Source: Pseudanabaena sp. UWO311 (lineage in GTDB: Bacteria > Cyanobacteriota > Cyanobacteriia > Pseudanabaenales > Pseudanabaenaceae). Taken from it: a DNA stretch of 64,000 nt. How positions within the stretch are numbered: the stretch's first letter is position 1; the number at the start of each line of letters is the position of its first letter. Under the pieces are notes generated by a model. It ran no database searches and had not been told where the DNA came from. It saw only the letters and a list, made by a program, of their open reading frames with translations. Shown in pieces: positions 12,972 through 13,333 of the stretch. The position numbers and the translations under genes are program-made. The stretch is from contig NZ_SJEE01000002.1 of NCBI RefSeq assembly GCF_006937785.1, forward strand, positions 124,001 through 188,000, in the 5' to 3' direction.

Positions 12972-13333
12972 GCTTGCTGTTTACTCCAGCCTCTAACTCA
13001 GAATCTAAAAAATTTGCAATGAAATGACGTGCAAGAAGATATACGCAAGAAAATGCAGTACACCATACAAGATCAAACTCTAACGAGTTTAACTTTTTTA
13101 CACTCAGATATAAAGCTAACCGCTTCTCAAAATATCATTTAATGGGGCTCTAAAGATCGTTGGTTTCTTGAAAACAGCAATTCTCATTATAAAAATTGGT
13201 TTTGTTGAAAGTTCGTCAAAGGCGGACTTTCAACAAAACCAATTTTGGAGTGTGCTGCGCCGAAGGCGCAGCACACTCCAAAATTGGTTTCATAATGAGA
13301 ATTGCTGTCCTGAAAAGGCTTAGATTTTCTACT
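12972..13333. other. Divergent intergenic region atpD-RibD/DHFR-like gene
   Basis: The left 200 bases should hold the atpD promoter and leader; I could not single out a promoter. The right part is filled by the compound palindrome described separately. Confidence 0.5.
13174..13308. repeat. Compound nested palindrome with two mutually exclusive hairpins
   Basis: A 17-bp outer stem (13174-13190 with 13292-13308, starting ACAGCAATTCTC) is perfect. Inside, hairpin A pairs 13192-13215 with 13223-13246 (24 bp, one mismatch, loop TCAAAGG), and hairpin B pairs 13236-13261 with 13265-13290 (26 bp, perfect, loop GAA). A and B share 13236-13246, so both cannot form fully at once. The structure ends 25 bases before the start codon of the next gene and is in its presumed leader. 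Whether it is a regulatory switch or two palindromic insertions into one site cannot be decided from sequence. Confidence 0.8.

Follow-up and report, generated by a model that had tools for sequence, protein, structure and literature searches.

A dispersed 133-bp MITE with a hairpin arm common to two stems, upstream of a RibD-like gene in Pseudanabaena sp. UWO311

Introduction

MITEs are short, non-autonomous transposable elements. Bacterial MITEs are non-coding and multi-copy, lie mostly between genes, carry terminal inverted repeats and a target duplication, and have stable stem-loops in their transcripts, according to the accessible part of a review (PMC10969869), which also gives direct repeats of 7-9 bp for QMITE2 and names Nezha in its reference list. 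Because such stem-loops and repeats are described there, the kind of element reported here is already known. It too is short, non-coding, multi-copy and mostly intergenic, with terminal inverted repeats, a target duplication and stable stem-loops, but it differs from the MITEs so described in that the middle one of three boxes of alternating orientation supplies an arm to both hairpins, and in that its interior is unrelated to the IS with which it shares its ends. Nezha of cyanobacteria is a relative of a TA-inserting element, unlike the present one, which has a 9-bp duplication.

REP and REPIN sequences have a Y1 (RAYT) transposase as their partner and, to our knowledge, no target-site duplication; at the element studied here, 9-bp duplications are found. 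REP palindromes (PMC3733652) are like it in being dispersed and extragenic, but the present element also has terminal inverted repeats that recur at the ends of a DDE-type IS.

In yeast, homogenisation of arms and inversion of the spacer are outcomes of polymerase template switching, as reported in the accessible sections of PMC8604942. The changes described below are alike, including exact inversion of short loops (GAA to TTC among them), but the setting is a mobile element compared between orthologous sites, where one pair shows a change running through a third arm. A literature search at the level of titles and abstract openings returned nothing that points to the present element or to any MITE whose arms evolve in concert; the accessible text of a paper on Microcystis (PMC11448079) mentions ISNCY elements, without the ends of the present element.

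The window analysed here is a stretch of 64,000 nucleotides from Pseudanabaena sp. UWO311 (contig NZ_SJEE01000002.1). A nested palindrome in it, just upstream of a RibD-like gene, had been read from sequence alone as a possible attenuator or riboswitch. Positions 13175-13307 are instead a copy of a MITE and not a switch owned by the gene. That the feature is a MITE copy and that it was moved in trans by the Tn5-fold (DDE) transposase of a 1418-bp IS is given a joint probability of roughly 0.9.

Results and Discussion

The features of the locus are collected in Table 1. The outer stem has 17 perfect pairs, and its extended arms (13174-13194 and 13288-13308) agree at 95%. Remeasurement agrees with the numbers of the sequence-only reading: the 17-bp outer stem, the 24-bp hairpin A with one mismatch, the perfect 26-bp hairpin B, and the 25 nt that separate 13308 from the ATG at 13334. 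The three occurrences of AAAATTGG were likewise located, those at 13192 and 13281 in direct orientation and the one at 13239 inverted. With M inverted relative to boxes L and R, M is able to pair with either neighbour. Hairpins A and B do share 11 nt (13236-13246), but the earlier statement that they cannot form together was too strong: both are present in the MFE structure and in the centroid structure, and the contest is limited to the middle box. The MFE of the palindrome is -94.2 kcal/mol, whereas shuffles average -38.3; because z is -14.4 and none of 200 shuffles is equally stable, the palindrome is beyond chance.

Table 1. Features at and around the insertion (window positions)
Feature	Positions	Strand	Remarks
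ATP synthase beta subunit gene (atpB), divergent	11538..12971	-	Pfam and synteny; anchor of the orthologous locus
Left target-site duplication TCTTGAAAA	13166..13174	.	One mismatch to right copy; the ortholog in G009 has TCCTGAAAA on both sides
Mobile element (MITE copy), 133 bp	13175..13307	+	Dispersed copies, orthologous sites, ends, duplications
Left terminal inverted repeat CAGCAATTCTCATTAT, 16 bp	13175..13190	+	Same as both IS ends in L135
Box L AAAATTGGTTT	13192..13202	+	Partner of M in hairpin A
Hairpin A	13192..13246	.	Arms 13192-13215 and 13223-13246, 24 nt, single mismatch
Box M, AAACCAATTTT on + strand	13236..13246	-	Arm common to hairpins A and B
Hairpin B	13236..13290	.	Arms 13236-13261 and 13265-13290, 26 nt, perfect
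Box R AAAATTGGTTT	13280..13290	+	Partner of M in hairpin B
Right terminal inverted repeat, 16 bp	13292..13307	-	Inverted-repeat comparison
Right target-site duplication TCCTGAAAA	13308..13316	.	9 bp
RibD C-terminal-domain (reductase-like) gene	13334..13846	+	Pfam PF01872, E 2.8e-20; downstream of the insertion

Judged by sequence comparison, a non-coding element of about 131-133 bp, bounded by CAGCAATTCTCATTAT...ATAATGAGAATTGCTG, is scattered over this genome and those of congeners, mostly between 9-bp direct repeats. Its end CAGCAATTCTCATTAT matches the own genome (G000) at 125 places with at most two mismatches, against 3 for the backward control. At least 61 blastn matches were obtained from a search in which 40 of 125 candidates were scored; the palindromic structure of the element makes some of these matches overlap, and the fetched stretches gave 44 separate copies or fragments. 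All but one of the 25 other genomes of the genus also have matches to the element, although in eight of them only 23-92 bases are covered; copy numbers in relatives are lower bounds, with 14 candidates scored per genome. Beyond the genus, one of nine genomes from other genera of the family has a match, of 21 nt, and none was found in 23 more distant genomes. No DNA match to the element was found among the plasmid or phage records searched.

Across all fetched genomes, 110 insertions have both ends present with at most three mismatches per end. Exact 9-bp duplications flank 39 of them, and 69 have such a duplication with at most one mismatch (41 do not); duplications of 6-8 or 10-12 bp account for only 0-2. 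Unoccupied sites were found at the locus itself. Of 18 genomes of the genus, the own one among them, 12 have no interruption between atpB and the RibD-like gene, one example reading GGTTTCCTGAAAA followed directly by CGATTAGATTTTC. The full element is present in G000 and G009 between two copies of TCCTGAAAA, one base of which is changed in G000. G016 and G019 carry an 83-bp form with a single hairpin, G018 carries a remnant in which box L, between the terminal repeats, is fused to the right end and which resembles a deletion between L and R, and G010 has a diverged insert. This comparison aligned 18 of 25 hit loci, with the weaker or more distant L092, L097, L098 and L100 and the second pieces L096, L099 and L101 set aside; the locus search had no hit in 7 of 26 genomes. 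Terminal inverted repeats of 16 bp, a fixed 9-bp duplication, unoccupied sites in relatives and ends shared with an autonomous IS are thus all found for this element, as is expected of a MITE.

Other palindromes adjoin members of the family. At 48820-48971 of the window, a long palindrome GACAAAAGCAAACC...GGTTTGCTTTTGTC adjoins a decayed MITE end of the same family (ATAATTGCTG, up to 48970). In L056, L070 and L299, a different dispersed palindrome, AACCCTTAAGG...CCTTAAGGG, adjoins copies of the present MITE.

The IS with the same ends was located in G024 by way of two exact ends 1.4 kb apart. It is 1418 bp long (L135, 584-2001), both of its ends are identical to those of the MITE, the 9-bp duplication GAGATTTAT lies on both sides, and it encodes one gene of 435 aa. 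Two IS copies in G020 (L156 and L175) also share the MITE ends, and this genome has 23 matches to the IS protein, ten of which span residues 2-435 at 89-90% identity. Among 36 related IS loci, 13 have a left end that matches the right end over 16 bp together with an exact 9-bp duplication; these are from Pseudanabaena, Arthrospira, Leptolyngbya and Desulfoferrobacter, and in some the last end bases differ slightly from the MITE end. A match to the transposase was not detected in the own genome, so mobilisation there would be past, or due to an IS that is lost or unassembled.

The IS protein scores 17.7 bits against the Pfam family DDE_Tnp_1 (PF01609), below the cut-off of 23, and has no match in NCBIfam. 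Because no curated profile matches above cut-off, the protein is labelled here as Tn5-fold, without a named IS family. A sequence-profile search against solved structures also gave no match, and the clear match is by fold only: the predicted model (pLDDT 87.3) aligns with Tn5 transposase at Z 22.2-22.6 over 355 residues with an rmsd of 4.0, far above unrelated rows. Residues D127, D216/D217 and E336/E338 are invariant in 25 homologue sequences, and a homologue of 46% identity is annotated "ISNCY family transposase" in 1 of 20 plasmid records. The IS resembles Tn5-like and ISNCY-annotated IS in its 9-bp duplication, its DDE residues and the predicted fold of its transposase, but it differs from Tn5 in an identity of only 10-11% to five Tn5 transposase chains in the structural alignment, as well as in the profile results above. 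Tn5 likewise produces 9-bp duplications. By eye, the ORFs flanking the IS in L135 (1-5000) resemble a group II intron-type reverse transcriptase and HNH.

Two other origins were considered and rejected. In 31 loci of PF01609 (DDE_Tnp_1) IS (L102, L103 and L106-L134), drawn from many more matches, none has these ends at up to three mismatches. Nor is the MITE an internal deletion of the 1418-bp IS, as the interiors have no significant similarity. It is strongly indicated by the common ends that the MITE was mobilised in trans by the transposase of the 1418-bp IS, a predicted Tn5-fold (DDE) enzyme present in some related species that would have acted through these ends.

The arms of the inner hairpins tend to change together. 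For family statistics, 133 distinct sequences were filtered on length (130-137) and on similarity of the ends, and L040_4533, L268_834 and L065 were removed by name, which left 100 full copies. Departures in the terminal repeats are 169 one-sided, 2 two-sided compensated and 6 two-sided uncompensated. The corresponding counts are 73, 162 and 4 for the private part of hairpin B, and 116, 94 and 13 for that of hairpin A. At the 11 box positions, M is off consensus in 112 cells; the same state is found in L in 89, in R in 81 and in both in 61. In 500 permutations within genomes, these three counts averaged 38.9, 29.8 and 16.0 and reached at most 49, 41 and 23. Agreement by position is 0.80-1.00 for L with M and 0.84-1.00 for R with M, and is as low as 0.74 for L with R, so that neither outer box tracks M without exception.

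Because the counts on 100 copies are inflated by shared descent, and because terminal repeats are held by the transposase at each move, orthologous insertions were compared. The sample is small: 15 pairs, with the truncated L067 left out, of which 13 include G000 and so are not fully independent. Among 629 hairpin pairs, 17 show two-arm changes that preserve Watson-Crick pairing (10 transversions and 7 transitions), 47 show one-arm changes, and 5 show two-arm changes that do not pair. In the same orthologs, 140 terminal-repeat pairs show 0, 16 and 1, respectively. About 1.08 two-arm preserving changes were expected from flank divergence (249 of 4421 sites), against the 17 observed; part of this expectation comes from L055 and L343, whose flank divergence is 17.7% on a short alignable left flank. 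When the partner was slid by 1-3 columns, 0-2 preserving changes were counted instead of 17, and both columns had changed in 3-11 cases instead of 18, with the 11 at offset -3, so that some clustering of changes is also present.

The loops change in a related manner. Of 20 orthologous loops, in hairpins that a heuristic located in both orthologs (which leaves aside, for instance, loop B of the copy at 13175-13307 and both L055 loops), 7 are unchanged, 7 exactly inverted and 6 changed otherwise; inversion among the loops of random differing copies is 8-12%. Several of the assemblies are fragmented drafts in which misassembly of palindromes is possible, and coupled arm changes and loop inversions are present in these assemblies.

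Since arms change together and loops invert exactly, template switching between hairpin arms is inferred. After insertion, the terminal repeats would decay freely while the inner hairpins stay largely paired, as the replicating polymerase may switch template over a short range and so copy a change from one arm to the other, and the same switching could flip the 3-nt loops. It is probable that arm copying of this kind keeps the inner hairpins paired while the terminal repeats decay. Copying would be far from complete, with 47 of the 629 pairs retaining an uncorrected one-arm change and 5 changed in both arms without pairing. The orthologous copies serve as a replicated natural test of palindrome persistence. 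Stems that change as fast as flanks, arms that change jointly and loops that flip are predicted by template switching, and not by selection on RNA.

A middle box that changes partner could carry one change through three arms. In L043_2500 and L285, an identical base differs jointly in L, M and R. The chances are about even that the element is self-templating as a whole, its central arm acting as template for two hairpins and mutations being copied between two and sometimes three arms. If true, hairpins may persist without selection while the terminal repeats of the same element decay, and such elements would naturally record template-switch mutations in the bacterial genomes that carry them. 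The present MITE family could be used to measure how often template switching occurs in wild bacteria and what its spectrum is.

Selection for structure, as a terminator, for RNA stability or as a cruciform used in transposition, would make the two-arm changes ordinary compensatory evolution. This seems unlikely. Watson-Crick pairing is retained in 95% of cells in hairpin B and 91% in hairpin A, yet the terminal repeats are at 89%, and hairpin B is overlapped by three terminator-like matches, nested in one another and each on the minus strand, where 0.3 is expected. However, because stem sites change at about the flank rate (6.0%, 74 of 1224, against 5.6%), no constraint on the stems is seen. 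The 10 transversions among the 17 two-arm changes have no possible G-T wobble intermediate, the loops pair with nothing and are still often exactly inverted, and four 45-bp forms devoid of hairpins carry 9-bp duplications, three exact and one with a single mismatch.

Gene conversion between dispersed copies could also produce two-arm differences, given that each genome has many similar copies and that L066 and L296 differ at several positions of hairpin A together. It is nonetheless an improbable source of them. The arm sequence GGAGTGTGCTGCGCC of hairpin B is found only in the copy at 13175-13307, in both arms, among 26 genomes of the genus, so no donor is visible; the G009 ortholog reads GGGGTTTGCTGCGCC. 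A change in L044 is present in M and R and absent from L. States that occur in a single copy among the 100 include two-arm Watson-Crick states (10 for R-M, 5 for L-M, 7 for hairpin A, 5 for hairpin B and 2 for the terminal repeats), beside one-arm states (7, 12, 20, 17 and 31, respectively); in hairpin A, 5 two-arm non-pairing states stand beside the 7 that pair.

Template switching concerns how the hairpins persist; the origin of the compound form is a separate matter. A length of 131-133 bp is found for 80 of the 110 insertions and one of 45 bp for four. These four consist of the outer stem alone, the form for which the sequence-only reading had suggested a search in other genomes; two are exact copies in G024 and two are in G000. 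Single-ended pieces that carry only hairpin A or only hairpin B are also present. The earlier suggestion of a palindromic element inserted into another holds in its first part, as the copies and duplications are those of an element that inserts itself. Its second part, in which a 45-bp outer-stem element would have received a palindromic unit and L and R would be the target duplication of that unit, has little probability. It accords with the 45-bp copies and with the direct repeats that L and R form, but it leaves unexplained why the inserted unit would carry M, the complement of its own target, and the 83-bp form of G016 and G019 and the remnant in G018 would most simply be deletions from the full form of G000 and G009. 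Shorter forms would arise by deletion between boxes or by loss of one hairpin, and the direction of size change is inferred to run from full to shorter. In L331, a tandem copy of AAAGGCGATGGAAATG replaces the right arm and end of the element, an apparent slippage at hairpin B.

The proposal that alternative hairpins in a leader regulate the RibD-like gene as an attenuator or riboswitch drew on the high stability and the position 25 nt before the start codon, to which can be added one sigma-70-like match over the left end of the element (13168-13196, where 0.7 is expected by chance), but it is very improbable. It was rejected because 12 of 18 genomes have an uninterrupted orthologous region and because the same element recurs at many unrelated places, where its arms also stay alike; 51 copies or fragments were classified in the own genome. 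Occurrence of the compound palindrome in unrelated places, which had been named beforehand as the observation that would speak against a leader, is what was found. By a crude ORF scan, 47 of these 51 are intergenic, the flanking ORFs being tandem for 23, divergent for 18 and convergent for 6; two are "inside ORFs" (the window copy, in an open upstream frame, and L038, in a 105-aa ORF) and two are at a stretch edge. This distribution shows no sign of a leader role. Rfam gave no family at gathering score in window positions 10000-17000, a search that an undescribed regulator or family would escape. Any influence of the element on expression of the RibD-like gene would be a by-product of insertion. 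A false riboswitch candidate is thereby removed, and a well-delimited MITE family with a probable transposase is added.

The RibD-like gene itself is variable among relatives. In G015, G023 and G025, the atpB anchor is present and the RibD-like gene is reduced to remnants. Next to atpB, the gene is interrupted, truncated or a remnant in L080, L090, L091, L093, L094 and L095, with or without the element. In L080, the G018 ortholog, a further stretch of inverted repeats, ACTCCCTTCCCA...TGGGAAGGGAGT, has a palindrome at its centre and is found immediately upstream of the RibD-like start codon.
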